From the NCBI RefSeq assembly GCF_001870905.1, contig NZ_LNDC01000064.1, positions 1 through 39,256 on the forward strand: a stretch of 39,256 nt of DNA, read 5' to 3'. A program made the translations under genes and the position numbers. The DNA comes from Geitlerinema sp. PCC 9228 (GTDB taxonomy: Bacteria > Cyanobacteriota > Cyanobacteriia > Cyanobacteriales > PCC-9228). The notes beneath the pieces are model-generated. The model saw only the letters and a program-made list of their open reading frames with translations, made no database searches and was not told the DNA's origin. Within the stretch, counting starts at the first letter, position 1. Each line of letters begins with the position of its first letter. Shown in pieces: positions 1,423-36,400 of the stretch.

Positions 1423-4299
1423 ATGACCAAATCCGCAACAACCGACAAACCAAATCCAACTCCCGGTTCGGTGGTTCGCTGTCGCCAGCGCCACTGGGTG
1501 GTTTTGCCATCCGATAATCCCGATTTGATTCGCCTGCGCCCCCTTAGCGGTGACGAAGAACAGACGCGCGGCGTTTATCGTCCCTTGCTGGGAGAGTTGG
1601 AGAATATCGAACCAGCCGAATTTCCCCTACCAACGGCAGAAGCGGTTCAAGACCATACGGCAGCGCGGTTGCTGATGGATGCGGCGCGGTTGAGTTTGCG
1701 TAGCGGCGCGGGTCCGTTTCGTTGTTTGGGGCGACTGTCGCTGCGACCTCGACCGTACCAGCTAGTACCGTTGTTGATGGCGCTGCGGTTGGAGACGGCG
1801 CGGTTGTTAATTGCGGACGATGTGGGGATTGGCAAAACCATTGAAGCGGGGTTGATTGCCCGGGAGTTGCTCGATCGCGCGGAAGTGAAGCGGTTGGCAG
1901 TTTTGTGTCCGCCCCGTCTGTGCGACCAGTGGCAGCGGGAATTGCGGGAGAAGTTTCATATTGATGCGGTGGTGGTTCGTTCGGGAACGGTTTCTAAGTT
2001 GGAACGATCGCTTCCCTCCGGCGACCATCACGTTTTTGGCTACTACCGCCACATTATCGTTAGTCTCGACTATGCCAAAAGCGATCGCCGGCGGGCCAGT
2101 TTTCTCGCCCATTGTCCGGATTTGGTTATTGTAGACGAAGCTCACACTTGTGCAATTCGCAGCAACGCACCACAAACCACAGGTAGCAGCGGTGGTTCCC
2201 AGCAGCAGCGCCACCAACTAGTAGAACAAGTAGCCGCCAAAAGCGATCGCCATTTGATTTTGCTGACGGCAACGCCCCACAGCGGTATTGAAACCTCGTT
2301 TTTGTCGTTGGTGGGGCTTATCAATCCCCAATTCGAGCAGTTGGACCTGGATAATCTCAGCGAAAGCGATCGCGCCCAATTGGCAAAACATTTTGTCCAG
2401 CGTCGCCGCGCCGATGTCCAACAGTGGTTGGGAGATGAAACGCCCTTTCCCCAACGAGATTCCTTAGAAGAATCCTACCGCCTCTCCCAAGAATACCGCC
2501 AACTGTTCGATAAAGTATACGAATTTGCGCGGGGGTTGGTGGTAGACCACCAAAACCAGGATATTGGCACAGCCCAACAGAGAGGGCGATATTGGTCGGC
2601 GCTGGCCATTATCCGCTGCGTTATGTCTTCTCCGGCAGCCGCTGTTGCTACCCTGACCCGCAAAGCCAGCCAAATTGCCGATAGCGAGGAAGTAGCGGAA
2701 GAACTGGACGAAGAATTGGCAGCGGCGTACACCGATGACCCCACCGAACGCGAACAAGTTATCGATGCCACGCCAAAAGTGGTGGTCGATCGCGCCCAAC
2801 GGTCTTATAAGGAAACAGACAAGCGCAAACTCCGGGAATTTGCCAAAACTGCCCAGCAATTGCAGGGGAAAAAAGATGCTAAATTGCAAAAAGCGATCGC
2901 TTTGGTAAAAAACTTGCTGGATGATGAATTTACGCCGATTATTTGGTGTCGCTACGTTGCCACTGCCAATTACGTTACCAGTGCTTTGGCAGAACAATTA
3001 GAAAAGAAAAAACGCGACAGCGCCCGGGTTATCGGTATTACTGGGGAACTTTCCGAAGACGAACGGGAAGCGCGCCTGGAAGAGTTGCTGAAGTATCGCC
3101 GGCGGGTGTTGGTGGCTACCGACTGCCTCAGCGAAGGGCTGAACTTGCAAGAGCATTTTACTGCCGTGATTCACTACGATTTGCCCTGGAACCCCAATCG
3201 CCTGGAACAGCGGGAAGGCAGGGTCGATCGCTACGGGCAAGTAGCGCCCACGGTGAAGTGTGTTTTGCTGTACGGTCAAGACAATCCCGTGGATGGCGCG
3301 GTGTTGGATGTGTTGCTGCGCAAGGCAAAAAATATTCATAAAGCTTTGGGAATAGCCGTTCCCGTTCCCATGGACAACGAAGCGGTTTCGGAAGCGTTGT
3401 TCCAGTCCTTATTCGAGCGCGCTAGCTCAGCCCAACAGCTTTCGTTGCTGGATTTGTTGGAAGATGGCGATTCTCCGGTAACGGAAGTACGCCGGCGTTG
3501 GGACCATGCTGTGCAACGGGAACAGCACAACCGTACCCGATTTGCCCAGCGCACCATCAAGCCGGAAGAAGTGAAGCGGGAGTTGCAGGAGTCGGATGCG
3601 GTTTTGGGCAGCCAGCAAGAGGTAGAACGCTTTACCCGCGAGGCTTTGGAACGGTTGAATGCGTCTTTGGTGAAGAAGAACAAGGCGTGGTATCTGCCCC
3701 ACGTTCTGTGGGTTTTAGAACCGGTTTTGGGGAACCAGCCGCGATCGCTTTCTTTTGAGTCGCCAGCGCCGGAAGGGGTAGAACCTGTGGGGCGCAACCA
3801 TCCTTTGGTGGAAGGGTTGGCGCGGCATCTGTTGGAAGAGGCGTTGAAAAATCCACGAGAAGCGGTGGCTGCCCGCTGCGGGGTGACGGTGACGGATGCT
3901 GTTAGTTACCCGGTGGTGGTTTTGTTGGTGCGATCGCGGTATTTGCTGCAACCGTATCGTCGCGAAGAACAATTGCTGGCGGAGGAATGCCTGACGTTGG
4001 GTTTTAGCGGACCGCCCTCAAACCCCCAATGGCTGTCAGTAGAACAGGCGCGGGAATTGTTGGAAACAGCAGAACCGACGGAGGATTTGCCCCTAGCCCA
4101 GAAACAGGCGCGCATCGAACGATTGTTGGGACGTTTGGAGGAATTGTCCTCCCATTTGGATGCGTGGGCTAACGATCGCGCCCAAGCCCTGAAAGACTCC
4201 CATCGGCGGGTACGGACCATGACCAAGGAAGGGGCAGTCAAGGTAATGCCCCAGTTGCCCATGGATATTTTAGGGATTTGCCAATTTGTCCCCGAGTGA
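1423..4299 (+). CDS. DrmD-like SNF2-family helicase
   Basis: A 958-residue superfamily 2 ATPase of the SNF2/RapA type. Visible motifs are RPRPYQLVPLLMAL (about 108-121), Walker A DVGIGKT (133-139), PPRLCDQW (163-170), the DEAH box (238-241) and LTATPHSG (281-288). The second RecA domain has VLVATDCLSEGLNLQ near 561 and WNPNRLEQREGRVDRYGQ near 588-605. This set, and the N-terminal RLLIADDVGIGKTIEAGLIA text, match the helicase called DrmD in class 1 DISARM. That protein lies next to an adenine methylase, as here. A charged, helical C-terminal region of about 300 residues follows the motor. A DNA translocase acting on invading DNA is the likely role. The gene has HIP1 sites and normal codon use. 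The methylase start follows after 97 bases, so co-transcription is likely. Another SNF2 defence helicase (DpdE type, for example) is possible. Confidence 0.8.
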   Translation: MTKSATTDKPNPTPGSVVRCRQRHWVVLPSDNPDLIRLRPLSGDEEQTRGVYRPLLGELENIEPAEFPLPTAEAVQDHTAARLLMDAARLSLRSGAGPFRCLGRLSLRPRPYQLVPLLMALRLETARLLIADDVGIGKTIEAGLIARELLDRAEVKRLAVLCPPRLCDQWQRELREKFHIDAVVVRSGTVSKLERSLPSGDHHVFGYYRHIIVSLDYAKSDRRRASFLAHCPDLVIVDEAHTCAIRSNAPQTTGSSGGSQQQRHQLVEQVAAKSDRHLILLTATPHSGIETSFLSLVGLINPQFEQLDLDNLSESDRAQLAKHFVQRRRADVQQWLGDETPFPQRDSLEESYRLSQEYRQLFDKVYEFARGLVVDHQNQDIGTAQQRGRYWSALAIIRCVMSSPAAAVATLTRKASQIADSEEVAEELDEELAAAYTDDPTEREQVIDATPKVVVDRAQRSYKETDKRKLREFAKTAQQLQGKKDAKLQKAIALVKNLLDDEFTPIIWCRYVATANYVTSALAEQLEKKKRDSARVIGITGELSEDEREARLEELLKYRRRVLVATDCLSEGLNLQEHFTAVIHYDLPWNPNRLEQREGRVDRYGQVAPTVKCVLLYGQDNPVDGAVLDVLLRKAKNIHKALGIAVPVPMDNEAVSEALFQSLFERASSAQQLSLLDLLEDGDSPVTEVRRRWDHAVQREQHNRTRFAQRTIKPEEVKRELQESDAVLGSQQEVERFTREALERLNASLVKKNKAWYLPHVLWVLEPVLGNQPRSLSFESPAPEGVEPVGRNHPLVEGLARHLLEEALKNPREAVAARCGVTVTDAVSYPVVVLLVRSRYLLQPYRREEQLLAEECLTLGFSGPPSNPQWLSVEQARELLETAEPTEDLPLAQKQARIERLLGRLEELSSHLDAWANDRAQALKDSHRRVRTMTKEGAVKVMPQLPMDILGICQFVPE

Positions 4300-4396
4300 T
4301 TCCGTTCGCGTCGCGTCTGGTGAAAGAGAATCGTTTTCTTGACAAATTTCCCATTTTATGTATTGACGTTGTCCATTGGCGGAAGCATTTAGAACT

Positions 4397-7300
4397 ATGA
4401 GTGCAGTTACCACAAACCTCACGGGCGTACAAATCGAAGGCAACTTAATTGCCCCCGACATGACCGAACAGTTGCTGGAAGGGGACATCAAAGGGCAATC
4501 CCCGGAAGATTTTGGCTTGCAGAAATCTGACAAGCTAGCGGATGAAATTGCCACGGCATGGGGCGATGCCCGGGCGTATTGGGATGCGTTTCGGCGGCGG
4601 TTGGCGCGGCTGCCAGAAGGAGAGACGGCAACGAGTTTGACCCGGGAGTATTGGGCAATTCCCCTGTTGGAACTGTTGGGATATCAGCCGAAATACCAGC
4701 CAAAAGCAGCGGTGGTGGAAGGGCAAACCTACGCCATTTCCCATCGTGCGGAACCTGGAGAAGAGAAACCACCGGTTCACATTGTGGGGGCGCGGGTGGA
4801 TTTGGAAAAACGTCCCCCCAGCGGTACTCCCAGACTGTCGGCACACGGGTTGGTGCAAGAATATCTCAATCGTACCGAACATCTGTGGGCGATCGCGACC
4901 AATGGGTTGCGCTGGCGGCTGCTGCGGGATTCGTCGTTGATGACCCGGCTGACCTATATCGAGTTCGATTTGGAACAGATTCTCGAAGGTGAGAACTTTG
5001 CCGAGTTTGGCTTGTTTTTCCGCCTGTTCCACCGTTCCCGGTTGCCGTCGGAAATGGACGATGCTGACGAGTGTTTGCTGGAGTATTACCACCAGGAAGC
5101 CCGCCAGCAAGGGGGACGGATTCGCGATCGCTTGCGCAATAATGTAGAAGCGGCTTTGGTTACCCTGGGAACCGGGTTTTTGCAGCGTCGTGACAACCAC
5201 AAGTTGCGCGAACAAGTGGAAACGGGAGAACTTACCCCCGAAAACTACTACCGCCAGTTGCTGCGATTGATTTATCGTTTGCTCTTTTTGATGGTAGCCG
5301 AGTCGCGGGAACTTTTGTTCGCTAGCGAAAATGAGCGTCAACTGCACTCATCGCCAGCCGAAAAAGCCCGTATCTATCGGGAATATTACAGCATGGAACG
5401 GTTGCGGGCGCTGGCGGAACGTCCTACTTACCGGCGGGAAGGCTTCCAAGACCTGTGGCAGGGGTTGCGGGTGACCTTTGCCTTGTTCGACGAAAACTGG
5501 CGCGGGGAACTTTTGAACCTATCGCCGTTGAATGGGGATTTGTTCGGTGAAGGAACTTTGGAAAATTTGGATACTTGCGCCATCGACAATCACGACTTAT
5601 CCCTTGCCATTCGCCATCTGTCTCTTTACGAACAAGACAAACGGATGCGGCGGGTGAACTACGGCGCTTTGGATGTGGAAGAGTTGGGCAGTATTTACGA
5701 AAGTTTGTTGGATTTTCGCCCGCAAATCGAGCAGAATCAAGGATTTTACGAGTTTCGTTTGGTGGCTGGCGGCGATCGCAAATCGACAGGTTCCTATTAT
5801 ACGCCACCGGAGTTGGTGGGACAACTGGTCAAAAGTGCTTTGGAACCGGTTATCGCACAGAAATTGCAGGGAAAAACCACCCGCCAAGAGCAAGAAACGG
5901 CGTTGTTGGAGTTAAAAGTTTGCGACCCGGCTTGCGGTTCTGGGCATTTTTTGCTGGCAGCGGCACGACGGATTGGCAAGGAACTGGCACAAATTCAAAC
6001 TGGGGAAAGCCATCCAGGACCGGATGCGGTACGGCAGGCAACGCGCCAAGCAATTCAGCATTGCATTTACGGGGTGGATATGAATCCCCTGGCGGTGGAT
6101 TTGTGCAAAGTGGCGTTGTGGATTGAAGGATTTTATCGCGGCTATCCGCTGACATTTCTCGACCATCGCATCCGCTGCGGAAATTCGTTGGTGGGGGTAT
6201 TGGATTTGGATTGTTTGCACGAGGGAATTCCGGATAAGGCATACAAGCCAGTGACGGGAGATGAGAAGAAAACGGCAAATTTGCTGAAAAAGCGCAACAA
6301 GGGAGAGCGCGGGGATGCGGAAATCGGGCAGCTTTCCCTGGAATTTGAGGAATTGGCTGTGGAAAGGGAGCAATATACGGAAGCGTTTCGGGAACTGGAT
6401 GAGATTGAGGAAACCAGTGCAGACCAAGTACGCCAGAAGCAGGCGAAGTATCGGCAAAGCCGTGAGGAAAAAGGATGGTGGCGCGATAATTCCGCTTGTA
6501 ATTTATGGACGGCGGCGTTTTTTATGCCGCTGACGGAGCAGAATTTGCAGTGGTTACCGACAACGGCAGCATTAAACCGGGTTTTGCGCGAAGACCGCAT
6601 GACGGGAGAAGTAGTTGAGGAAGCAAATAAGCTGGCAGAGGAGAAAAATTTCTTTCACTGGCCGTTGGAGTTTCCGGAAGTTTTTGAAGATGGGGGATTT
6701 GATTGCGTTATGGGAAATCCGCCGTGGGAACGGATTAAGTTGCAGGAGAAGGAATTTTTTGCGTCTCGGGATGCAGAAATTGCTAAGGCAAAAAATAGTG
6801 CAGCGCGGAAAAAGTTAATCGAGCGATTGCCGCAGACCAATCCCAAGTTGGCACAGGAATGGGAAGAGGCGAAGCAGTTTGCAGAGGCGCAGGGCAAGTT
6901 TGTGCGCGAGTCGGGTCGTTTTCCTTTGACCAGCAAAGGCGATATCAATACGTATGCGGTGTTTGCAGAAACCGATCGTAATTTAGTGGGAAAGAAAGGA
7001 AGGGCAGGAATTATTGTTCCCACTGGAATTGTCTCTGATGACACTACAAAGAAATTTTTTGAAGATTTGATCGAAAATCACACACTTAATAAAGTTACTG
7101 GCTTTGAAAATGAAGAATTTATTTTTCCTGCTGTAGCTAATGTAGTGAAATTTTGCATATTAACTATTAACGGTAAAAACCTTCCTCAATCTAATCCCAC
7201 TTTTTGCTTTTACATAAGAGATATTAATCAACTTAATCGAGAAGATAGGTACTTTACACTAACTCCTGATGAAATAAAATTAATGAATCCGAATACTCTC

Positions 7301-8275
7301 ACTTGTCCCGTATTTCGTACCAGTGCGGATGCTGAAATTACCAAACAAATTTACCAGCGGGTACCAGTTCTCGAAAACGAGAGTAAAGGACAAAATCCTT
7401 GGGGCATTTCTTTTATGCGTATGTTTGATATGTCCAATGATAGTGATTTGTTTAAACCTGAAGCTAGCAAAAATCGTGTCCCCCTCTATGAAGCTAAAAT
7501 GTTTCATCATTTTAATCATCGTTGGGGTGATTATGCAATACAAGCTAGAACAACAGGACGTGGTTTAGCAGAAGTTCCTTTAGAAAAATATCAAGACCCT
7601 AATTATACAATCACGCCACGTTACTGGATCGAGAAAAAAGAAGTAGAGAATCGAATAACCGATAAATGGAATCAAAAATGGTTATTGGGATGGAGAGATA
7701 TTTGTAGATCCTCAGACGAAAGAACAGTGATTTCGTCTCTGATTCCCATAGCAGGTTGTGGAGATACTGTTTTATTGATGCTTCCTCAAGTACAAAGCTT
7801 AAAATCTATTTCCTGTTTGTTAGCTAACTTAAACAGTATAGTTCTTGATTTTGTAGCTCGTCAAAAAGTTGGCGGAACCCATCTAAAATTTTTCACCATG
7901 CGCCAACTCCCCATTCTTCCCCCAGAAGCTTACAGCCAGGAAGACATCGAATTTATCAGCAGCCGCGTCCTCGAACTCGTATATACCGCTTGGGATATGC
8001 AACCCTTCGCAAAAGATATGGGATACGACGGCGAACCCTTTATCTGGGACGAACAAAGACGTGCAAAACTCCGCGCCGAACTGGATGCTAAATACGCCAA
8101 ACTTTATGGACTCACCCGCGACGAACTCCGCTATATCCTCGATCCCAAAGACGTTCATGGCGAAGACTTCCCCAGCGAAACCTTCCGTGTCCTCAAAGAC
8201 AACGAAATAAAACGCTATGGTGAGTATCGTACCCGCCGATTGGTTCTCGCCGCCTGGGATATGCAAGGCTTTTAG
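4397..8275 (+). CDS. PglX/Eco57I-type adenine-specific DNA methyltransferase (DrmMI-like)
   Basis: A 1292-residue N6-adenine methyltransferase. SAM-binding motif I is DPACGSGHFLLAAARRIGKE (about 510 onward), preceded by TGSYYTPPELV (about 465) and followed by IYGVDMNPLAVDLCKVALW. The catalytic motif is MGNPPWERIKL (NPPW near 773). The N-terminal ~400 residues resemble the helper domain of type IIG enzymes, but I see no clear PD-(D/E)XK nuclease site, so it probably only methylates. Residues about 880-1164 should be the target-recognition domain; their DNA is markedly AT-rich and HIP1-free (see findings). ATG 4397 is preferred: a GGCGGAAG purine stretch lies upstream, while the in-frame TTG at 4376 has no ribosome-binding site. 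A weak internal promoter (TTGACA 4339-4344) may add to read-through from the helicase. By analogy with DISARM/BREX it would mark host DNA as self. A stand-alone type IIG enzyme is less likely given the neighbours. Confidence 0.85.
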   Translation: MSAVTTNLTGVQIEGNLIAPDMTEQLLEGDIKGQSPEDFGLQKSDKLADEIATAWGDARAYWDAFRRRLARLPEGETATSLTREYWAIPLLELLGYQPKYQPKAAVVEGQTYAISHRAEPGEEKPPVHIVGARVDLEKRPPSGTPRLSAHGLVQEYLNRTEHLWAIATNGLRWRLLRDSSLMTRLTYIEFDLEQILEGENFAEFGLFFRLFHRSRLPSEMDDADECLLEYYHQEARQQGGRIRDRLRNNVEAALVTLGTGFLQRRDNHKLREQVETGELTPENYYRQLLRLIYRLLFLMVAESRELLFASENERQLHSSPAEKARIYREYYSMERLRALAERPTYRREGFQDLWQGLRVTFALFDENWRGELLNLSPLNGDLFGEGTLENLDTCAIDNHDLSLAIRHLSLYEQDKRMRRVNYGALDVEELGSIYESLLDFRPQIEQNQGFYEFRLVAGGDRKSTGSYYTPPELVGQLVKSALEPVIAQKLQGKTTRQEQETALLELKVCDPACGSGHFLLAAARRIGKELAQIQTGESHPGPDAVRQATRQAIQHCIYGVDMNPLAVDLCKVALWIEGFYRGYPLTFLDHRIRCGNSLVGVLDLDCLHEGIPDKAYKPVTGDEKKTANLLKKRNKGERGDAEIGQLSLEFEELAVEREQYTEAFRELDEIEETSADQVRQKQAKYRQSREEKGWWRDNSACNLWTAAFFMPLTEQNLQWLPTTAALNRVLREDRMTGEVVEEANKLAEEKNFFHWPLEFPEVFEDGGFDCVMGNPPWERIKLQEKEFFASRDAEIAKAKNSAARKKLIERLPQTNPKLAQEWEEAKQFAEAQGKFVRESGRFPLTSKGDINTYAVFAETDRNLVGKKGRAGIIVPTGIVSDDTTKKFFEDLIENHTLNKVTGFENEEFIFPAVANVVKFCILTINGKNLPQSNPTFCFYIRDINQLNREDRYFTLTPDEIKLMNPNTLTCPVFRTSADAEITKQIYQRVPVLENESKGQNPWGISFMRMFDMSNDSDLFKPEASKNRVPLYEAKMFHHFNHRWGDYAIQARTTGRGLAEVPLEKYQDPNYTITPRYWIEKKEVENRITDKWNQKWLLGWRDICRSSDERTVISSLIPIAGCGDTVLLMLPQVQSLKSISCLLANLNSIVLDFVARQKVGGTHLKFFTMRQLPILPPEAYSQEDIEFISSRVLELVYTAWDMQPFAKDMGYDGEPFIWDEQRRAKLRAELDAKYAKLYGLTRDELRYILDPKDVHGEDFPSETFRVLKDNEIKRYGEYRTRRLVLAAWDMQGF

Positions 8276-8416
8276 TCTCCCATGCCCACAAACATCCGTT
8301 ATTTATTGATTCAATTGAGGAAACATAACCCTAAAGAGCAACTTGGGAGCAGACAAAATGGCATCCTTTCCCCAATTTCCCAGAAACAAACCATCCTTAC
8401 CCCAGTCTATCCTCGA

Positions 8417-8445
8417 TTGAAAATCTAAAATTCTAGCGATAAAAT
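8417..8445 (+). promoter_or_regulatory. Sigma70-type promoter for the UvrD-fusion unit
   Basis: TTGAAA at 8417-8422 and TAAAAT at 8440-8445 are separated by exactly 17 bases. Transcription would start near 8452, about 26 bases before the ATG at 8478, with GGGAGAAAG as ribosome-binding site. The 202-base gap after the methylase supports a separate transcription unit here. Confidence 0.6.
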
Positions 8446-8477
8446 GACTCACTATCCCCTGGGAGAAAGCAAAAAGC

Positions 8478-10616
8478 ATGGCAAGCTGGACCGTTTCCGT
8501 CACCGATACCTTCCTCAACGAACTGCTGAACCTGCCCCACAAGGTCAGCAAACGCATCCAAAAAACCGTCAAAACCTTAGAAAAAGACCCCATTTCCGCC
8601 CGGGGTGATGCCAAAAAACTGAAAAACTATCAAAACAACGTCTATCGCGTCCGCATCGGCGATTATCGCCTGTTCTATACCTTCGGCAACGGCTGGGTAA
8701 AATTGCTCAGCGTCCGTCCGCGCAGCGATCGCACCTACAACACCGAACTCCCCGACACCACCGTTCCCGAAACCTCCCCCGAACCCCTAGCATCCAACAT
8801 AACCGAAACACCTGCGTCCAACATAACCGAAACACCTGCCCAAACCACCAGCTTTCCTACCAGCAGCCAAGGCGAACCCCTCCCCATGGAACTCACCACC
8901 GAATGCCTGCAACGCTGGCAAATCCCCCAGGAATACTGGGAAACTATCCAGCAAGTCACCAACGCCGACGAGTTGCTGGAACTGTCCATCCCGGAACGTT
9001 ATACTGCCCGCATTCTGGACAATCTTTTCCCCCGCCCCATCGAACAAATCGAAACCCAACCCGAGTATCGCCTCCCATACCCCGAAGACCTGGAACGCTT
9101 CTTTGAAGGGGACTTGAGTGCTTTTTTGCTAAAACTGGACCCGGAACAAGAAAAAGTGCTGGATTTCGGTCGCGAGGGTCCAATTTTGGTGAAAGGCGGT
9201 CCCGGTACTGGCAAATCTACCCTAGCTATCTATCGCGTCCAAAAACTTCTAGAATTGGGCTACCGTCCCCTGCTGTTTACCACCTACACCAACGCCCTGG
9301 TCACTTATTCGCGGCAGCTTTTGGAACAGCTTTTGGGGCGATCGCTAGAGGCAGCCGGCGTAACCGTCACCACGGTAGACTCCCTCACATACCAATACCA
9401 TGTCCGTCGATGGAGAAAACCCAAATTTATCAAACAGCCACAAGCTTGGGAATACCTGGAAGCCGCCCTGGAAACCACTGCCATCCCTGCCAAAAATGCT
9501 TTCGACCGCCAAGTTCGCCGGCAAAACCTGCAACAGTTGGGGGCTGCTTACCTGCTGTCGGAATTTGAAGATGTTATCGAAGCTTGGGGACTCACCACCT
9601 GCCAAGCCTATCTGGATTTCGACCGTCGCGGGCGCGGGATGCCCCTGAAAAGCAGCATTCGCGAGGCCATCTGGGCCGTTTACGAAACCTGGCGCGATCG
9701 CTTGGCGGCTGACGGTTTGCTCTCTTGGGGACAGTTGCGACAAAATGCCCTGGATGTAGCCCAACAAAATGAGCCACCCTACCGGGGATTGGTGGTTGAC
9801 GAAGCCCAAGACCTCACTCCCGTGGCTTTGCGTTTTTTGCTGTCTCTGGTTCCCGATTTTCGGGGCGTATACCTCACCGCCGACGCTTCCCAATCCATCT
9901 ACCATCGCGGCTTTAGCTGGAAACAAGTTCACGCCCACCTCAAAGTCACCGGACGCACCATTTCCCTAAAACGCAACCACCGCAACACCCGACAAATTCT
10001 CGATGCCAGCCAGCTAATCCTGGCAGGAACCAACGCCGGCAACTCGGAAAGCGACCAAGAACCGCTTGCAGTGAGCGAAGCCGAAGCGCCTGCGGTGAGC
10101 GAAGCCGAAGCGCCTTCTTCCCACCAAGGTGACCCGCCTACCTTACTTTTAACCGACGATCGCGATCGACAGATTGACTTCATCCGGGATTTTCTCGTAA
10201 CCGCCGCCAAAACTTATCGCTTGCCCTTACATGGTGGAGCGGTTTTGTGTCCCGACAATCAGACTGCCAAAGCGATCGCCAAACAATTATCTCACTTGGG
10301 ACTGGCTGCCAAGCACGTTTCCAGCCGCGAAATCGATTTGGAAGCCTCCCACATCAAAGTGCTGACCCTGCACTCGGCGAAGGGATTGGAATTTCCCTTT
10401 GTGGCGGTGGTGGGACTGGAAGCGGGACAGTTGCCGCACCTCGATGAAGACCTCCCCGGCAGCGAAGAAGAAACCGTTTTGAACGAACAGCGCCGCCTGC
10501 TGTTTGTCGGCTGTACGCGAGCCATGCGTGCTTTGATGGTCAGCGGTTCTCACCAGCATCCCTCTCCTTTTGTCCGTTCTTTGAAAGCTCCTTTTTGGCA
10601 CCAGCAAGTTCTATGA
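8478..10616 (+). CDS. ParE/RelE-like domain fused to UvrD-family helicase
   Basis: A 712-residue two-part protein. Residues 1-90 (SVTDTFLNELLNLP, VYRVRIGDYRLFYTF, VKLLSVRPRSDRTY) have the fold signature of RelE/ParE toxins: two N-terminal helices, then strands containing the R-IGDYR core. A Thr/Pro/Ala linker with 24-bp repeats follows. From about residue 210 comes a superfamily 1 helicase: Walker A GGPGTGKST (about 240-248), Walker B VVDEAQDLTP (about 438), ADASQSIYHRGFSW, and the C-terminal TLHSAKGLEFPFVAVVG and RRLLFVGCTRAM motifs. Fusions of this sort are annotated as UvrD/Rep-type helicases; the toxin-like part may bind DNA, another protein, or act as a toxin. Its stop overlaps the next ATG (ATGA), showing tight coupling to the giant helicase. 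It therefore likely belongs to the defence system. Confidence 0.85.
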   Translation: MASWTVSVTDTFLNELLNLPHKVSKRIQKTVKTLEKDPISARGDAKKLKNYQNNVYRVRIGDYRLFYTFGNGWVKLLSVRPRSDRTYNTELPDTTVPETSPEPLASNITETPASNITETPAQTTSFPTSSQGEPLPMELTTECLQRWQIPQEYWETIQQVTNADELLELSIPERYTARILDNLFPRPIEQIETQPEYRLPYPEDLERFFEGDLSAFLLKLDPEQEKVLDFGREGPILVKGGPGTGKSTLAIYRVQKLLELGYRPLLFTTYTNALVTYSRQLLEQLLGRSLEAAGVTVTTVDSLTYQYHVRRWRKPKFIKQPQAWEYLEAALETTAIPAKNAFDRQVRRQNLQQLGAAYLLSEFEDVIEAWGLTTCQAYLDFDRRGRGMPLKSSIREAIWAVYETWRDRLAADGLLSWGQLRQNALDVAQQNEPPYRGLVVDEAQDLTPVALRFLLSLVPDFRGVYLTADASQSIYHRGFSWKQVHAHLKVTGRTISLKRNHRNTRQILDASQLILAGTNAGNSESDQEPLAVSEAEAPAVSEAEAPSSHQGDPPTLLLTDDRDRQIDFIRDFLVTAAKTYRLPLHGGAVLCPDNQTAKAIAKQLSHLGLAAKHVSSREIDLEASHIKVLTLHSAKGLEFPFVAVVGLEAGQLPHLDEDLPGSEEETVLNEQRRLLFVGCTRAMRALMVSGSHQHPSPFVRSLKAPFWHQQVL
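8790..8837 (+). repeat. 24-bp tandem duplication in the UvrD-fusion linker
   Basis: Two 24-base units at 8790-8813 and 8814-8837 differ at one base. Each encodes the eight residues ASNITETP. They lie in the flexible linker after the ParE-like domain. Confidence 0.85.
10068..10115 (+). repeat. 24-bp tandem duplication (GTGAGCGAAGCCGAAGCG type)
   Basis: Two 24-base units, 10068-10091 and 10092-10115, differ at one base and encode AVSEAEAP twice, between helicase subdomains. The core GTGAGCGAAGCCGAAGCG resembles the short GAGCGAAG-type repeats scattered through many cyanobacterial genomes, so it may be a repeat insertion kept in frame. Confidence 0.8.
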
Positions 10617-13600
10617 ATACCATGCAATTAAAAGACCTCATTGCCAAAGGCGAACAAGCGATCGCGGCGACCAGCCAACTTTTAGCCTTGCAAGCCACCC
10701 ACCTCGACTGCAGCGATGTTGAATCCCTCACCGAATCCCAACTCGACGCGCTTTTTTCCGAGATTCCCGAAGACTGGGATTTCGCGCAACTGGGGGAAGT
10801 CATCGACCCGGCAAGCATGAGCGAACAACTGGCCGAACAAATTTGCGATCGCGTGAACCAACGCCACAGCAGGGCATCCACCACGACCACCAGCGAAGAA
10901 ACCACCGACAATCGATCCCAGCCAACCCCCTTCCAAACCGACAACAGCCGCGCCCCGCTGGACATTTTCCGCCTGCGCGATGAAGTCATCGACGACTACC
11001 GCCGCTATATTGAAAGCTTTCTCACCATTCGTGACAACCGCGTCAAAAACTTTGTAGATGAAGAACTAGGGCGAGGCCAGCTCTGGCGCGACCCCCTGGT
11101 GCAAATCAACCTCGCTTACCAACAGGGAAGTAGCACTGACGAACTCATCAAGCGCGGCATTTTGCACCCCGACTGCCGGCGCTACTTTCCCGAATTTCGC
11201 TTCTATCGCCACCAAGAGGAAGCCTTTCTGGCAGCCAATCGTGGCGAGTCCTACGTCCTTACTACGGGAACTGGGTCTGGTAAAAGCATGGCTTATGTGG
11301 TGCCTATTTTTGATGATTTATTGAGAAATCCGCAGATAGAAGGCGTGCGGGCGATTCTGGTTTATCCCATGAATGCCCTGATTAATTCCCAAAAAGAAGA
11401 ATTTGAAAAATATCTCAGCAAAGTTTCCAACAGCCACATCCGCGTGGAACAGTATACCGGACAAGAAAGTTTGGAGCAAAAAAGCGCCATTCAAAACCAT
11501 CCGCCTCACGTTTTGCTGACCAATTACGTGATGCTGGAACTCATGCTGTCTCGTACTGCCTACGAGAAAAAACTCGTATCGTCCCCCAACTTGAAATTCC
11601 TGGTTCTAGATGAGCTGCATACCTATCGCGGCCGTCAGGGGGCGGATGTGGCTATGGTGGTGCGCAAGCTCCGCGAACGGTGCCAAAACGACAATCTCCT
11701 GTGTATCGGTACTTCTGCCACCATGGCTACCGAAGGCAGTCGGGAAGACCGCCGCCAAACTGTGGCCGGGGTAGCCAGCCAACTGTTCGGGGTGGAAGTG
11801 CCCACACACAATACCATCGACGAAACTTTGGAACGCGCGATCGCTCGTCCGGAACCAGATGTGGCAGAACTGCACGCCAGCCTGACCGAAGGCTTACCAC
11901 CACAAGCCGAACGCACCAAGGAAGCTTTTTTACAACATCCCCTAGCAGCCTGGATCGAAAATAATTTTGGGCTTGTCCGAGAAGGCGATCGCTTGGTCCG
12001 CCGCCAGCCAATTTCCATTTCCCAAGGGGCACAACAACTGGCTGAAGAAACAGGGGTCGATCGAGAAACCTGTCGCGAGACTCTAGAGGCAGTCTTTCTG
12101 TGGGGCAGCCAAACTGGCGCGATCGCGTTTCGACTGCACCAATTTATTTCCCAAGGCGGCAGCGTCTACGCCACCCTGGAATCCAGAGACAATCGTTCTC
12201 TTACTTTGGAAGGTCAGTATGCCACCAGCGGCGATCGGCTGCTCTACCCGTTGAAATTCTGCCGCGAGTGCGGTCAGGACTACTATCTGGTGCGCTACAA
12301 CCGAGAGCAAAACACCCTCACACCGCTGCTTCCCAACGATGTGGAAACTCAAATAGATGGCGAAGATGTCCAACAGGGATATTTCACCCTCGACGAACCG
12401 GGGCTTTGGGAACCGGAGGAAGACATTAACCGCTTGCCGGATAACTGGTTCAACGACACCAAACGCTACGGTAGAAGAGTCAAAAAAGATTACAAGCGCT
12501 ACATTCCCCAATCATTGCACGTCTATCCCAACGGCAACATTGCCAGCAGTTCGGAAAGCGACCCTGAGAAGGGGATTGATGGATGGTTTGTTCCCCAACC
12601 CTTCCTGACTTGTCTTAACTGTGGTGTTGTTCACGATTCCCGATCGAGCGAATATAGCAAACTTTCTCGCCTCAGCAGCGAAGGACGCAGCACTGCCACC
12701 ACCTTGTTGTGCTTGTCCACAGTCAGCCGCCTGCGCAATGCTAGCAAGCGAGGTGCGATCGCCCAGGAAGCCAACAAAATTCTCAGCTTCACCGACAATC
12801 GCCAGGATGCTTCCCTACAAGCAGGACATTTTAACGACTTCACGCGCACCAGTTTTTTGAGAGCTGCCCTATACCGGGCATTGCAGCAAGAAGGAGAACT
12901 CACCCACGATAATCTTGCCGTCGCTGTCGTAGAACGCATGGGATTGTCTCAAGAATCCTATGCCCAGCAACCGGTCAGTTACGGTAAAGCGCGATTGCGC
13001 AATGAGGAAACCTTTCGGGATTTGGTAGAGTACCGCCTCTACGAAGACTTGCGCCGGGGCTGGCGTATTGTCCAACCCAATTTAGAACAGTGTGGGTTGC
13101 TGGAAATTGAGTACGAGGGGCTTTGGGAAATTTGCCAAAATCCCCAACCATGGCGCGATCGCCAGCATCCCATTTTGCTACAAGCAACGTCTTCCCAACG
13201 CTACCAAGCTGCCAAAGTGTTGCTGGACCAATTGCGAAAAGAACTAGCGATCGATGCCAAGTCGCTACAAAAAGATGAGATAGATAAGTTAAGAAAACGG
13301 GTGGAACAAACTCTGGTGGATGTCTGGCAAATCGATTCTGCCGAAACCCTCCAACAAGCCAAATATGCTAGCTTACGCAGCGGCCAGCAAAACAATCGTC
13401 GCACTCCGGCAGAAGTGAAGCTCACCGTTAGCAGTAAAGTTGGTAAGTTTCTGCGATCGGAGCGTGCCTGGCCTTGGTTGCCACAACCGCTATCCAAGAC
13501 AGAATACAACGATCTCATCGAAGCATTGGTGGAAGTTTTGCATACTTCGGGATTTTTGCGACGGAAGAACCAAGACAACAAAGTCCAATTGTGCGTCACT

Positions 13601-16030
13601 TCTATTAAATGGAAAGTCAGCAATGCCGATACCATCGCTGCCGACCCTCTCACTTCCAAACGCCTGCAAGGATCGGAAGAACCGGAACTGCCGGTCAATC
13701 GCTTTTTTAAAGATTTTTACCAACACCAGGCTTTCTCCATTTCCAGTTTGGAAGGACGCGAACATACAGGTCAAGTAAGCAATTACGATCGTCAAGAGCG
13801 AGAAGATCGATTTCGCCGGGGTCAGCTTTCCGCCCTGTTTTGCTCTCCCACCATGGAGCTAGGTATTGATATTTCCGACTTAAACGTAGTTCACCTGCGC
13901 AACGTTCCCCCTTCCCCTGCCAACTACGCCCAACGTAGCGGACGCGCCGGACGTGGGGGCAGCGAAGCCCTGGTGATTTCCTATGCTTCCGCTAGCAGCG
14001 GCCACGACCAATACTTTTACCAGCGCCAAGAGCAAATGGTTGCCGGGGTGGTGTTCCCGCCGAAACTGGAACTTGCCAACCAAGACATGGTCATCTCTCA
14101 CCTACACTCGCTCTGGCTGGCTTGGACAGGTGCGGATTTGGGGCGCTCGATGAACGAAATCCTGGACCTCGATTGCGAAGGCTACCCCCTCAAAGAGAGC
14201 ATCCAACAACAGCTAACCTTATCCCCCGAAAAGCTGGAAGAATGCGTCCAAGCTGCGCGCTCCATTCTTAGCGATCGCTTTTGCCAACAAGATTTGCAAC
14301 GTACTAGTTGGGGGTCCGAATCATGGTTGCGGCAAACTCTGGAGAACGCTCTGAATCAATTTGACCAAGCTTGCGATCGCTGGCGGAACTTATATCACGA
14401 TGCCGTTACTCAACTCCAAAAAGCCCGCTCTACGATCGATCGCGCCGCCAGTGGTGGCGTTTCCAAAAAAGAGCGAGACAATGCCGAAGACTTAAGACAA
14501 GAAGCCGAAAGACAGCGCGCTCTACTGGTAGGGCAAGAAGACCGCAGTGGCAGAACTGACTTTGCATTTTATCCTTACCGCTACCTGGCTTCCGAAGGAT
14601 TTCTCCCTGGATTCAACTTTCCCCGCTTGCCCGTCCGAGCCTACATTCGCGCCGGCGACAAAAGCGCGTTCCTCGCCCGTCCCAAAGTGGTTGCCATTCG
14701 AGAACTGGCCCCCAATAATATCGTCTACTACGAGGGCTCTACATATCAAGTTAATAAAACCAAACTACCTGTCGGGGGACCGGATTACCAACGCGCTGCC
14801 CTCTGCGCCAATTGCGGCTATTTCCACGCCGGCGATGGCATCAGTCGCGATACCTGCGAGCATTGCGGAGCGCGAATTACCACTGATAGCAACGGCAACC
14901 CCGCCAAACTCAACCGTCTATTTACTCTGGAAAGCCTCAGTACCCGCCGTTACAAGCGAATTACTTGCGATGAAGAAGAACGGCTCAAACACGGCTACAA
15001 CATCACCACCCACTTTCGCTTTGCTGAAGGGAAACAAGAGCTAGCCACAGTAACCGACTCGCAAGGAAAAAAACTGCTGCAGCTCACCTACGGCGAAACG
15101 GCCGAACTTTGGCGCGTCAATCGCGGTCTGCGACGAGCCAACGAACAAGGTTTCAAACTCGATCTCGACACCGGCGAGTGGTGGGGCAACAAAGCAGGAA
15201 ATAACACCAAACTCCCCGAAAACTTGCAAACCGAAGTCAACTTAATGGTGTCCGACACTTGCAACGTCATGCTGGTCGAACTAGCCGAGTTGCCCGACGA
15301 AAACGCCCAAGCCTACCTCGCCACCTTTCAACACGCGATCGAACGTGCCATCCAAACCGTTTACAAACTAGAGGAAAACGAACTGCTCTCCGAACGACTA
15401 GGGGAAGGCAATTACCTGCTGTTCTGGGAAGCATCCGAAGGAGGGGCTGGCGTTCTCTCGCGAATTCTGGAAAATCCCAAGGCATTTCAAAGACTAGCCG
15501 ATACAGCCCTGGAGATTAGCCACTTCCAACAAGAAGGTCAGCCAGAACAAGAAGGTTGCGCTCGCGCCTGTTACAAATGTTTGCTATCTTACAGCAATCA
15601 GTTCGACCATCCCTTACTCGATCGCTATTTGGTACGTACGTTCCTCGAACAACTCCAAACCAGTACCCTACAACGCCATCAGGAGGATCTTTCCCGCGAC
15701 GAACATTATCAGAAACTACGTTCCCAAATCGACCCCAATTCCCCTCTGGAGGCAGATGTTCTCGACGAACTGTACCGACGGGGCATCAAACTCCCCGACA
15801 CTGCCCAGGAATTAATTCCCGAAGCGCAGTGCAAACCGGATTTTCTTTATAAAAAGGCAAAGGTAGCTGTATTCTGCGACGGTTCGGTCCACGATCGTAC
15901 GGAACAGCGCCAAAAAGACCAAGCCAAACGCGATGATTTGGAGTACAACACGAGATATCACGTTTTTGTTTTGCGTCACGATGAAGATTGGCGATCGCGA
16001 CTCGATGAGTTAGCTGCTTATGTGGGGTAA
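10613..16030 (+). CDS. Giant DUF1998 helicase, DruE/MrfA-like, with C-terminal nuclease-like domain
   Basis: A 1805-residue superfamily 2 helicase. In order it shows an N-terminal acidic region, FRFYRHQEEAF with Walker A TGTGSGKS (about 218-225), YPMNALINSQ, the DELH box (333-336), and GTSATMA. A long insert carries FCRECGQDY (about 549) and TCLNCGVVH (about 665), then FTDNRQDASLQAGHFND. Motif V is SPTMELGIDISDL and motif VI QRSGRAGRGG (about 1107-1116). Further on are a zinc knuckle, CANCGYFH with CEHCGA (about 1397-1420), and a DUF1998 region with the CARACYKC cysteine cluster near 1650. The last ~90 residues (EADVLDELYRRGI, CKPDFLYKKAKVAVFCDGSV) look like a Vsr/DUF559 PD-(D/E)XK nuclease. 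Size and DUF1998 match DruE of Druantia; DrmA/DrmB and MrfA are relatives. The start is ATG 10613, overlapping the upstream TGA by ATGA; an earlier in-frame start lies inside the neighbour and is unlikely. Confidence 0.85.
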   Translation: MNTMQLKDLIAKGEQAIAATSQLLALQATHLDCSDVESLTESQLDALFSEIPEDWDFAQLGEVIDPASMSEQLAEQICDRVNQRHSRASTTTTSEETTDNRSQPTPFQTDNSRAPLDIFRLRDEVIDDYRRYIESFLTIRDNRVKNFVDEELGRGQLWRDPLVQINLAYQQGSSTDELIKRGILHPDCRRYFPEFRFYRHQEEAFLAANRGESYVLTTGTGSGKSMAYVVPIFDDLLRNPQIEGVRAILVYPMNALINSQKEEFEKYLSKVSNSHIRVEQYTGQESLEQKSAIQNHPPHVLLTNYVMLELMLSRTAYEKKLVSSPNLKFLVLDELHTYRGRQGADVAMVVRKLRERCQNDNLLCIGTSATMATEGSREDRRQTVAGVASQLFGVEVPTHNTIDETLERAIARPEPDVAELHASLTEGLPPQAERTKEAFLQHPLAAWIENNFGLVREGDRLVRRQPISISQGAQQLAEETGVDRETCRETLEAVFLWGSQTGAIAFRLHQFISQGGSVYATLESRDNRSLTLEGQYATSGDRLLYPLKFCRECGQDYYLVRYNREQNTLTPLLPNDVETQIDGEDVQQGYFTLDEPGLWEPEEDINRLPDNWFNDTKRYGRRVKKDYKRYIPQSLHVYPNGNIASSSESDPEKGIDGWFVPQPFLTCLNCGVVHDSRSSEYSKLSRLSSEGRSTATTLLCLSTVSRLRNASKRGAIAQEANKILSFTDNRQDASLQAGHFNDFTRTSFLRAALYRALQQEGELTHDNLAVAVVERMGLSQESYAQQPVSYGKARLRNEETFRDLVEYRLYEDLRRGWRIVQPNLEQCGLLEIEYEGLWEICQNPQPWRDRQHPILLQATSSQRYQAAKVLLDQLRKELAIDAKSLQKDEIDKLRKRVEQTLVDVWQIDSAETLQQAKYASLRSGQQNNRRTPAEVKLTVSSKVGKFLRSERAWPWLPQPLSKTEYNDLIEALVEVLHTSGFLRRKNQDNKVQLCVTSIKWKVSNADTIAADPLTSKRLQGSEEPELPVNRFFKDFYQHQAFSISSLEGREHTGQVSNYDRQEREDRFRRGQLSALFCSPTMELGIDISDLNVVHLRNVPPSPANYAQRSGRAGRGGSEALVISYASASSGHDQYFYQRQEQMVAGVVFPPKLELANQDMVISHLHSLWLAWTGADLGRSMNEILDLDCEGYPLKESIQQQLTLSPEKLEECVQAARSILSDRFCQQDLQRTSWGSESWLRQTLENALNQFDQACDRWRNLYHDAVTQLQKARSTIDRAASGGVSKKERDNAEDLRQEAERQRALLVGQEDRSGRTDFAFYPYRYLASEGFLPGFNFPRLPVRAYIRAGDKSAFLARPKVVAIRELAPNNIVYYEGSTYQVNKTKLPVGGPDYQRAALCANCGYFHAGDGISRDTCEHCGARITTDSNGNPAKLNRLFTLESLSTRRYKRITCDEEERLKHGYNITTHFRFAEGKQELATVTDSQGKKLLQLTYGETAELWRVNRGLRRANEQGFKLDLDTGEWWGNKAGNNTKLPENLQTEVNLMVSDTCNVMLVELAELPDENAQAYLATFQHAIERAIQTVYKLEENELLSERLGEGNYLLFWEASEGGAGVLSRILENPKAFQRLADTALEISHFQQEGQPEQEGCARACYKCLLSYSNQFDHPLLDRYLVRTFLEQLQTSTLQRHQEDLSRDEHYQKLRSQIDPNSPLEADVLDELYRRGIKLPDTAQELIPEAQCKPDFLYKKAKVAVFCDGSVHDRTEQRQKDQAKRDDLEYNTRYHVFVLRHDEDWRSRLDELAAYVG

Positions 16031-16276: not shown

Positions 16277-16306
16277 TTGACAGATCTGACAATGGGACAG
16301 TATAAT
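16277..16306 (+). promoter_or_regulatory. Near-consensus sigma70 promoter
   Basis: TTGACA at 16277-16282 and TATAAT at 16301-16306 are both perfect boxes, with an 18-base spacer. Transcription would start near 16313, giving a leader of about 340 bases before the first recognisable gene at 16651, or a separate small transcript. Confidence 0.65.
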
Positions 16307-16650
16307 AACAGACTAATCGCGAACTTGGAGACTCCCTTTGAGAGACTCCGTTAGAAATCAAATACAATACATGGCACTCCGAGTAAGGAAGTTCCGACGT
16401 TATCAGTACACCTTCCCGATATTAGAAGTTTTATATTTGTTAAAGAGTACTGAAATCAAATTTTTTCCCTGTTGTCGTTAAAAATAAATAAGAAGGTGAT
16501 ATTTCAACGGCTTGGAAGCTGTTCAATGTAAAATAAAAATCAAATATTGTCAGGGCTCCAAAAAAATATTCATGTCAGGATGGGAGCCCCAATCGCTTTT
16601 ATCCTATTTTTAGCTATCTCGATTGGAAAAAACGAAAAACTGTAGGGAAC
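16307..16650 (+). other. Long AT-rich leader or possible small RNA region
   Basis: No convincing gene is seen. A 36-codon frame at 16371-16481 (MALRVRKFRRYQYTF start) has no ribosome-binding site, and I do not call it. GAGACTCC occurs twice within 16329-16350. A 7-bp hairpin, GGGCTCC (16553-16559) with GGAGCCC (16583-16589), lies about 60 bases before the cassette start. The stretch has no HIP1 site and is AT-rich, like the cassette itself. Confidence 0.4.
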
Positions 16651-17304
16651 ATGAGCGAAGAGCAAAATTCAGACATTAAAGAGCGTATCCAAATCACTCG
16701 TCCCGAAGGTCTCTATGAAATTCGAGATAGAGACGGCAACCTAATTGACTATACGCAAGCAGATGGTCGCCAACTATTTAACCACTACCGTCATAACGTG
16801 ACGAACTACGATGAAGTTTTAGATGAACTTCGCAAGAGTCAAGGATATGTAGGTGGATACGACCAAAAACAAGCTTCCAATGGCGCGGCAGAGAAAGTTC
16901 TCCAGTATTACAGAAACGAGCATGTTAAGGTAATTAATGACGCACAAACCAAAGGAGAAACTTTAAAAGGCCTAATGAAGAAAGCGGGTGTAGGTACTGC
17001 ATCTGCTCTATCATCACTGCTCGATTCTTGGTCTGAGAAAATAAAGCAGATTGCGCATTTACAAAATAGTCAAAGGTCTTTACAGGTCTGGAACGATACC
17101 TATCGGGTACAGCGAGACTTAGTTAAAAAACTGCTGAAAGAGGAAGGCGTCGATCCAGAAGTTATACAGAAAGTTAATTCTATATATTCCACCCGTTCGG
17201 TCAATAAAGCAGTTGAGAAGGGAATGGATCTATTCGATCTGGAAAAATCTGAAATTCTGCGAATCGTCAAATCTGCTATCCGGTATGCCAACAAATCATT
17301 ATAA
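16651..17304 (+). CDS. Hypothetical protein, first gene of AT-rich cassette
   Basis: A 217-residue, largely helical soluble protein that I do not recognise. The N-terminus has a short strand-rich segment (RPEGLYEIRDRDGNLIDYTQADG) that reads like a small beta domain. After that the protein is charged and helical, rich in Lys, Gln and Glu, with possible coiled-coil stretches (LLDSWSEKIKQIAHLQNSQR, then YRVQRDLVKKLLKEEG). There is no signal peptide or membrane segment. TGTAGGGAAC directly before the ATG supplies a ribosome-binding site. Seven bases separate it from the next gene and two more separate that from the nuclease, so the three form one operon. Codon use is AT-rich compared with the defence genes and no HIP1 site occurs, suggesting recent transfer. 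A mobile-element or defence role is possible from context only. Confidence 0.7.
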   Translation: MSEEQNSDIKERIQITRPEGLYEIRDRDGNLIDYTQADGRQLFNHYRHNVTNYDEVLDELRKSQGYVGGYDQKQASNGAAEKVLQYYRNEHVKVINDAQTKGETLKGLMKKAGVGTASALSSLLDSWSEKIKQIAHLQNSQRSLQVWNDTYRVQRDLVKKLLKEEGVDPEVIQKVNSIYSTRSVNKAVEKGMDLFDLEKSEILRIVKSAIRYANKSL

Positions 17305-35812: not shown

Positions 35813-36400
35813 GTCTCAAATACTCCTGAAAAGCAGCGATTGGAAATATTTAATCAAGGACTAAAGGAAAATCATCATTGCCAAACAGGTCGCTCCGTTT
35901 CGTAAAGTTTCTTTGTCGAAAAGTTAAGTTTTTTTTCATTTTGTTCGCGGAGCGATCGCTGTTGGCAAGTTCAGAACCATCATCTCAGGTCTTGGACGTT
36001 TCGCAAAGCGAAATCCTTGAATTGGTATGCATTTGAGGGGTTTACCCACGGCGTGGGAACCGGTCAGCCGCCGGCAAAAATCGGCACAGAATTTTTAATT
36101 ATTGTTAAGCAACCCTTCAACGATTGTGGGGAGCAAGCTCTATAATGCAGAGTCAGAACGCCACTTTTGCTTGCTCGACCGACCTTCCTTGAACTTCATC
36201 AAGCTTAACAGTGGGGGGGGCTTCTCGAAACGGGAAGAGACGATTACACTAGACCTTTGAGTAAGCTTGATTCCCAAGATTGGGCGAGCTTCCACGGGTC
36301 TGCCCCTCAGCACTTGCCGAAAGCAAAAAAACCCTTACAATTCAAGGAAAGGCTGAAGGTCAAGCAGAGTTCGTTCCTGTCTAAAGAGAGGAGAGTCTTA
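35813..36400 (+). other. psaA upstream region and leader
   Basis: 588 bases with no convincing gene. It serves the GTG-started lipoprotein on one side and psaA on the other. It contains a hairpin TTTCGC-AAA-GCGAAA (35999-36013), a 13-bp palindrome CCCACGGCGTGGG (36045-36057), the psaA -10 box (36141-36146), a run of eight G at 36213-36220 and a leader hairpin CTTCTCG/CGGGAAG at 36221-36237. The reading frame of psaA stays open upstream as far as a TTG at 36257, but this is not homologous to PsaA. Confidence 0.55.
36094..36146 (+). promoter_or_regulatory. Candidate psaA promoter with possible RpaB (HLR1-like) site
   Basis: TATAAT at 36141-36146 is a perfect -10 box; the -35 is poor (TTCAAC at 36116-36121, 19-base spacer). 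Just upstream, TTTAATTA (36094-36101) and GTTAAGCA (36104-36111), separated by two bases, loosely match the HLR1 double repeat that the RpaB regulator binds at photosystem I genes. The match is imperfect. A transcript from here would have a leader of about 250 bases. Confidence 0.4.

Follow-up and report, generated by a model that had tools for sequence, protein, structure and literature searches.

A probable cyanobacterial Type I ARMADA operon with a RelE-UvrD gene between armB and armC

To which defence system do four adjacent genes of Geitlerinema sp. PCC 9228 belong, when their best profile matches carry the names of several systems? The genes lie at positions 1423-16030 of contig NZ_LNDC01000064.1, whose 39,256 nucleotides were analysed as a whole and are called the window below. 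The window is one complete contig (C64) of the 223-contig, 4.8-Mb genome and the view upstream of the genes is therefore limited to 1422 bases. A first-pass annotation had read the locus as a mixture of DISARM-like and Druantia-like parts. The shared parts were indeed seen, but a new DISARM/Druantia hybrid was rejected because this mixture has already been described as ARMADA, whose authors call it a 'missing link' that joins DISARM to Druantia (Bell et al. 2025 preprint, PMC12458937). We consider it probable that the locus is an intact cyanobacterial Type I ARMADA with a RelE-UvrD gene of a non-Type II lineage between armB and armC, and that it restricts unmodified DNA with the RelE-UvrD protein (D hereafter) as a motor that feeds single-stranded DNA (ssDNA).

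According to the same preprint, ARMADA consists of ArmA (BrxHII/RapA-like), ArmB (PglX-like) and ArmC (YprA-like, with a C-terminal Vsr nuclease). Type II ARMADA also has ArmD (RelE-GajB) in a strict order that places ArmD last, and Type I opens with the YprA gene, many archaea and cyanobacteria having the order A-B-YprA instead (PMC12458937). The main text of the preprint gives the RelE-GajB fusion for Type II alone; its supplementary tables may list the order A-B-D-C. ARMADA itself having been described there, what is new here is a Type I ARMADA with RelE-UvrD between B and C. In our literature search PMC12458937 was the sole paper with ARMADA as its subject, and PMC13192584 and PMC12904381 use the word once or twice.

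Gene content and relation to known systems

The four genes are long uninterrupted frames on the forward strand, intact and operon-like, and their order is A-B-D-C:

1423..4299, + strand: ArmA-like RapA/SNF2 helicase, 958 amino acids; K138 and D238 correspond to K136 and D236 of E. coli ArmA
4376..8275, + strand: ArmB-like PglX/DrmMI methylase, 1299 amino acids from TTG; S-adenosylmethionine motif G521, NPPW motif N781
8276..8477, no strand: interval between B and D, 202 nucleotides, the place of variable genes in cyanobacterial relatives
8478..10616, + strand: D, RelE-UvrD fusion (ArmD architecture), 712 amino acids; Walker A K246, Walker B D441
8478..8729, + strand: RelE/ParE-like N-terminal domain of D, residues 1-84
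10613..16030, + strand: ArmC-like YprA-family helicase, 1805 amino acids; K224 and D333; start overlaps the stop of D
15326..15583, + strand: MrfA Zn-binding (MZB, DUF1998-type) domain of ArmC
15746..16027, + strand: Vsr/DUF559-type nuclease domain, C-terminal in ArmC

The frame of the ArmB gene opens with TTG at 4376 and contains an in-frame ATG at 4397. For ArmC the list of open reading frames (ORFs) gives TTG 10595, and ATG 10613 overlaps the TGA of D (ATGA at 10613-10616); this overlap sets the start at 10613 and hence the length at 1805 amino acids. No ORF of at least 50 amino acids was found in the B-D interval. A stretch of about 115 residues at the N terminus of ArmC (window 10613-10960) is common to cyanobacterial ArmC proteins, is missing from the distant Type I matches and gave no clear match in Pfam.

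PADLOC results are reported here as the best 25 matches of each protein. The top profile on gene 1 (SNF2/RapA) was labelled DpdE (713.5 bits), with DrmD next at 335 bits, and gene 2, an Eco57I/N6 methylase, was DrmMI-like at 280 bits, which bears out the DISARM class 1-like opening pair noticed in the first-pass annotation. The ParE-UvrD fusion that it had proposed was recovered in gene 3 (ParE/RelE in Pfam, E 9.3e-7, and UvrD; GajB-like), as was its 1805-residue DruE-like DUF1998 helicase in gene 4 (DEAD, Helicase_C and MZB domains; top match DruE3, 291 bits), whose nuclease-like end corresponds to a motif of the Vsr/DUF559/MTES_1575 type (weak in the window, clear in a close relative). Frames and domains also agree with its description of a defence-type locus of four genes, three of them motors and one a methylase. 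The NCBIfam models scored below cut-off on gene 1 (DrmD 371.9 bits, cut-off 610; DpdE 199.6, cut-off 500), and the DrmA profiles gave cross-matches only (212 bits to gene 1 and 54 bits to gene 4). A single known system can thus end up under several profile labels, here DpdE, DrmMI, GajB and DruE as the best PADLOC names. Of note, the DpdE-labelled PADLOC model that scores so high on the ArmA-like protein, PDLC02853, may have ARMADA proteins among the sequences from which it was made; the NCBIfam DpdE score is far under its cut-off.

All four architectures are those of E. coli armABCD (L034), and the eight residues mutated in E. coli ARMADA are identical in the aligned window proteins. Among the aligned rows ArmA K138 and D238 are conserved in 25/27 and 26/27, ArmB G521 and N781 in 29/29 and 29/29, ArmC K224 and D333 in 40/43 and 43/43, and K246 and D441 of ArmD in 45/45 and 45/45.

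The window has the ArmA, ArmB and ArmC content of the cyanobacterial A-B-C form of Type I ARMADA and an ArmC of the same clade, with the BrxHII/RapA-like and PglX-like genes in an operon and the Vsr-type domain last in ArmC. It differs from Type I by the RelE-UvrD gene that lies between B and C and overlaps the ArmC start: the Type I orders are C-A-B or A-B-C, and the window keeps A-B then C with D between. The first-pass annotation had considered that all four genes might match one described system in the same order. The content is that of ARMADA, but the order is A-B-D-C instead of the A-B-C-D of E. coli Type II, the helicase is of the Type I clade and D is of another lineage.

Membership of other systems was rejected. 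DISARM class 1 has the same DrmD- and DrmMI-like opening pair, and a related D immediately precedes drmA in some cyanobacterial DISARM-type loci; however, DISARM class 1 has separate DrmA and DrmB where the window has one fused YprA helicase with MZB, and neither DrmB nor DrmC was among the best PADLOC matches. DruE profiles are the top PADLOC matches of the window ArmC, but Druantia III carries two phospholipase D domains (PMC12458937, available sections) whereas the nuclease motif of the window is Vsr-type, and no DruH or DruA-D appeared in the PADLOC matches shown for the window proteins scanned, within an upstream view of 1422 bases. The BREX locus of Deinococcus sp. NW-56 (L008) contains a related RelE-UvrD gene together with PglZ, BrxC and BrxL; among the matches shown for the window proteins there was no PglZ or BrxC, and BrxL was not seen. 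The first-pass annotation had likewise reported no DrmC, DruH, DruA-D, PglZ or BrxC. Its suggested likeness to Hma did not hold, as HmaA is one of many helicase profiles that cross-match gene 1 (190 bits), and HmaB and HmaC were both absent from the matches shown. Finally, Dpd was discarded because NCBIfam DpdE fell under its cut-off and DpdJ and DpdF gave weak helicase cross-matches to gene 4 only.

Lineages of ArmC and of the RelE-UvrD protein

The Type I clade was defined by the C-A-B loci and the cyanobacterial A-B-C loci. A wide, quick tree of ArmC was computed on 42 of 49 C-like frames, after leaving out one near-copy, a split gene (two half frames) and four frames that were short, partial or only related, and a careful tree on 20 rows with the long branches removed. 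In both trees Type I and Type II ArmC form fully supported clades at a large distance from each other (100/100 in the 20-row tree, with branch lengths of 4.1 and 4.2). The window ArmC falls in the Type I clade, in a cyanobacterial group made mostly of A-B-C loci; this finer placing comes from the quick 42-row tree, most forks within Type I being unresolved in the 20-row tree. One cyanobacterial locus, in Aulosira (L179), groups with Type II. In addition, the window ArmC stops right after its Vsr-like domain and the examined Type II proteins extend further.

The Vsr assignment is based on a Vsr/DUF559/MTES_1575-type motif common to the relatives, on Pfam matches that are weak in the window and clear in a close relative from Chroococcidiopsis (L003, E 1.4e-6), and on the predicted fold. 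A model of the nuclease domain with a mean predicted local distance difference test score (pLDDT) of 84.7 had as its top fold match in the PDB the catalytic domain of I-Bth0305I (E 7.2e-3, prob 1.00, template modelling score 0.65 by target length), which we take to have a Vsr-like fold.

D has another history. Its first ~84 residues match RelE-family toxins in the PDB (3bpq, E 1.5e-4; 1wmi, E 4.2e-4), and the best structural match of a model of the whole protein (mean pLDDT 76.3) is to UvrD-type helicases. A wide tree of D was built on 53 of 58 rows, leaving out one near-copy and four rows with a poor or truncated N terminus; a careful tree and the approximately unbiased (AU) test used 25 of these 53 rows. 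Both trees are rooted at the midpoint, which gives no direction of transfer, and the BREX- and Dpd-linked D form long branches. The window D falls outside the Type II ArmD lineage, and its identity to E. coli ArmD is about 24%. A single clade of all 16 ARMADA D rows tested was rejected on the 25-row tree (p-AU 6.65e-90).

In both trees the window D groups with D of DISARM-type loci, of the Deinococcus BREX and of Pseudanabaena ABRG5-3. Among the 386 cyanobacterial genomes drawn for this study, 25 had DrmA matches, and D lies directly before drmA in two of them: a DISARM-type operon with ArmA/DrmD-like and ArmB/DrmMI-like genes (found by tblastn), Sacsin-type genes, D, DrmA and DrmB (G185), and a locus with D followed by a DrmA-like gene (G005). 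In a further genome (G153) D and drmA are both near contig ends and cannot be joined. The BREX locus (L008:10518-19233) reads brxC-D-pglX, with a D 37% identical to that of the window, and a Dpd-linked D of Deinococcus joins the group only in the 53-row tree, by a long branch. The Pseudanabaena ABRG5-3 plasmid locus (L007:4605-21799) is a divergent A-B-D-C, its D and C being 53% and 26% identical to those of the window. The L007 helicase is DruE1-like, far from both ARMADA types and tail to tail with a second YprA-like gene, and it has the same start as the N-terminal stretch of cyanobacterial ArmC; L007 is possibly another ARMADA-like type.

The other side of the D tree contains Type II ArmD, restriction-enzyme- or brxL-linked D, a locus with the order C-D-A in which the D stop overlaps the ArmA start (G170), and two actinobacterial loci resembling C-A-B-D Type I (L098 and L107), in which C is placed by coordinates with contig identity unchecked. 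As separate observations, RelE-UvrD-type genes end operons of a BPTD_3080-family restriction enzyme and a methylase on Pseudomonas and Gemmobacter plasmids (L178:6022-14082 and L181:1159-10404), and one follows brxL in Thermus (L182:7451-10995). In a Thiohalocapsa metagenome-assembled genome (MAG) the order is B-C-D and the YprA-like helicase joins neither ARMADA type in the tree (L101:520-11647).

ArmC matches, counted at E 1e-100, were present in 28 of the 386 genomes, 20 of these having one of the window's kind, which means at least 56% identity with fragments included. D followed by C was found in at least four other loci: a Pseudanabaena galeata plasmid (L002), a Pseudanabaena MAG (L097), and loci in genomes G093 (L065) and G116 (L066), A and B not being on the same contig stretch in the last. 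D-bearing slots may hold further genes, such as a PIN protein (L002) or an AAA and HNH pair (L065). This pair, an AAA_21 ATPase and an HNH endonuclease between armB and D (L065:9345-11453), presumably resembles Septu/PtuAB. The DISARM-type genome G005 also contains an ArmA-like stretch 71% identical to that of the window (C6:6008-7870) and has no ArmC match at this threshold; the stretch is perhaps a remnant or reflects a contig gap.

Possible role of D in the operon

On the model of E. coli ARMADA and of DruE, we favour methylase-guarded DNA restriction with ArmC as effector and D as second motor, and we infer each step from these systems. DruE, a YprA relative, is a helicase-nuclease that loads onto 3' ssDNA and cuts long DNA (PMC13192584). 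The operon would restrict unmodified DNA, ArmB methylating the recognition sites of the host and ArmA, a RapA-type translocase, interrogating DNA together with ArmB. ArmC, of the YprA type, would load on 3' single-stranded or stalled non-self DNA, translocate and cut by its C-terminal Vsr-type nuclease. D, whose gene overlaps armC, may supply or extend the ssDNA on which ArmC loads, and its RelE-like domain may bind or cleave RNA or serve to dock D. Self/non-self restriction by methylation, as suggested in the first-pass annotation, is plausible for the window locus. The anti-phage tests of the preprint concern Type II, where in E. coli all four genes are required and the defence is non-abortive, the cell not being shut down; its available sections do not state the role of the RelE-UvrD protein (PMC12458937). 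Both properties are those of E. coli Type II and may extend to Type I and to this D lineage.

Several observations weigh against the proposed operon. The closest sister of the window ArmC in the wide tree (L075) has the order A-B-C. Taken alone, the Pfam matches at the end of the window ArmC are weak (MTES_1575 0.011, DUF559 0.012, Vsr 0.058), and a PDB sequence search with this end gave no real match. On recurrence, which the first-pass annotation had left to a survey, the D-then-C loci above stand against the finding that D adjoins C in only 3 of the 20 genomes of the window's kind (G000, G093 and G116), most close Type I relatives being without D. In the D-then-C loci L002, L065, L066 and L097 the overlap is missing and the gaps measure from a few to ~180 nucleotides. 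Finally, varied genes fill the slot elsewhere, so D may be cargo.

The main rival, unlikely yet of some weight, takes up this last point: the locus would be a plain three-gene A-B-C Type I ARMADA with D as an unconnected passenger in the variable B-C slot, perhaps a defence or repair gene that works on its own. The B-C interval measures 45 to 2761 nucleotides in twelve A-B-C relatives (one, L084, with a split ArmC) and without D it holds PIN/AbrB pairs, an Rpn-type gene or a Uma2 nuclease. D also occurs without such a helicase nearby (L067 in G002) and beside protein-kinase genes (G111). A single clade of the D-bearing ArmC of the window, L002, L065 and L066 was rejected (p-AU 0.0018), and D was therefore gained, lost or exchanged more than once. 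In contrast, the D stop and the helicase start share an ATGA in the window, in L007 and in both DISARM-type loci, and the E. coli C and D genes have a four-base overlap. E. coli Type II requires D (PMC12458937), and the same architecture entered ARMADA from separate lineages. A broad scan of contigs returned at least 80 D loci, and neighbours were examined in 45 of them (L093 to L133, which are 41, and four others). Among the matches listed, 18 of these 41 loci have an ArmA-, ArmB- or ArmC-like match on the strand of D, 3 have one on the other strand only and 20 have none, some loci being cut by contig ends.

It is improbable that the RelE-like domain is instead the effector, phage DNA being sensed and the UvrD part releasing an mRNA-cutting activity that stops translation. 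The N terminus of D does match RelE-family toxins, and R59, R64 and Y87, residues of the kind that we take to serve catalysis in RelE, are invariant across 20 aligned D proteins. However, once DISARM- and BREX-linked D are included (12 aligned sequences), R64 alone remains invariant, with R59 nearly so and Y87 not, and no antitoxin-like gene was seen beside D in the window. The Type II defence of E. coli being non-abortive also argues against this account. Very improbable is a Type II ARMADA with its C and D genes swapped, for although the four architectures are those of E. coli armABCD, the window ArmC is Type I and lacks the extension of Type II proteins after the Vsr domain, the window D is outside the ArmD clade, and the Aulosira locus that groups with Type II reads C then D.

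Beyond the Type I operon proposed here, we lean slightly towards RelE-UvrD being an exchangeable module of YprA-helicase defences, of which separate lineages entered ARMADA more than once, so that the window operon converged on the Type II gene set. One lineage would have entered the B-C slot of cyanobacterial Type I and another Type II, and the Type II lineage is probably also found in actinobacterial Type I. Relatives of the window D that immediately precede drmA in DISARM-type loci, and those within a BREX and a Dpd operon, would be further instances of such a module. Some cyanobacterial Type I operons carry this D lineage and close relatives do not, which provides natural with/without pairs; with the same module in DISARM-type and BREX operons, the role of D is therefore testable across systems.

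Sequences flanking the operon

Upstream of armA, at a distance of 590 bases and on the same strand, a 168-amino acid protein is encoded at 327-833; it has no Pfam, PADLOC or NCBIfam match. No Rfam match was obtained in the window, and promoter-like sites (13 vs 12.4 in shuffles) and terminator-like sites (25 vs 23.7) were not in excess, so we claim no promoter. Within 16277-17304 there is nevertheless a perfect TTGACA-18-TATAAT match (16277-16306), followed by a terminator-like hairpin (16577-16605) and then a 217-amino acid gene without family match. A search for repeats in both flanks returned nothing clearly resembling element ends, and the ten downstream proteins scanned gave zero PADLOC matches. 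The downstream genes look ordinary. A PsaA/PsaB gene among them (psaA, 36257-38668) marks the host as a cyanobacterium, and the others include RND efflux, BCCT transporter, TPR, MutL and SLT genes.

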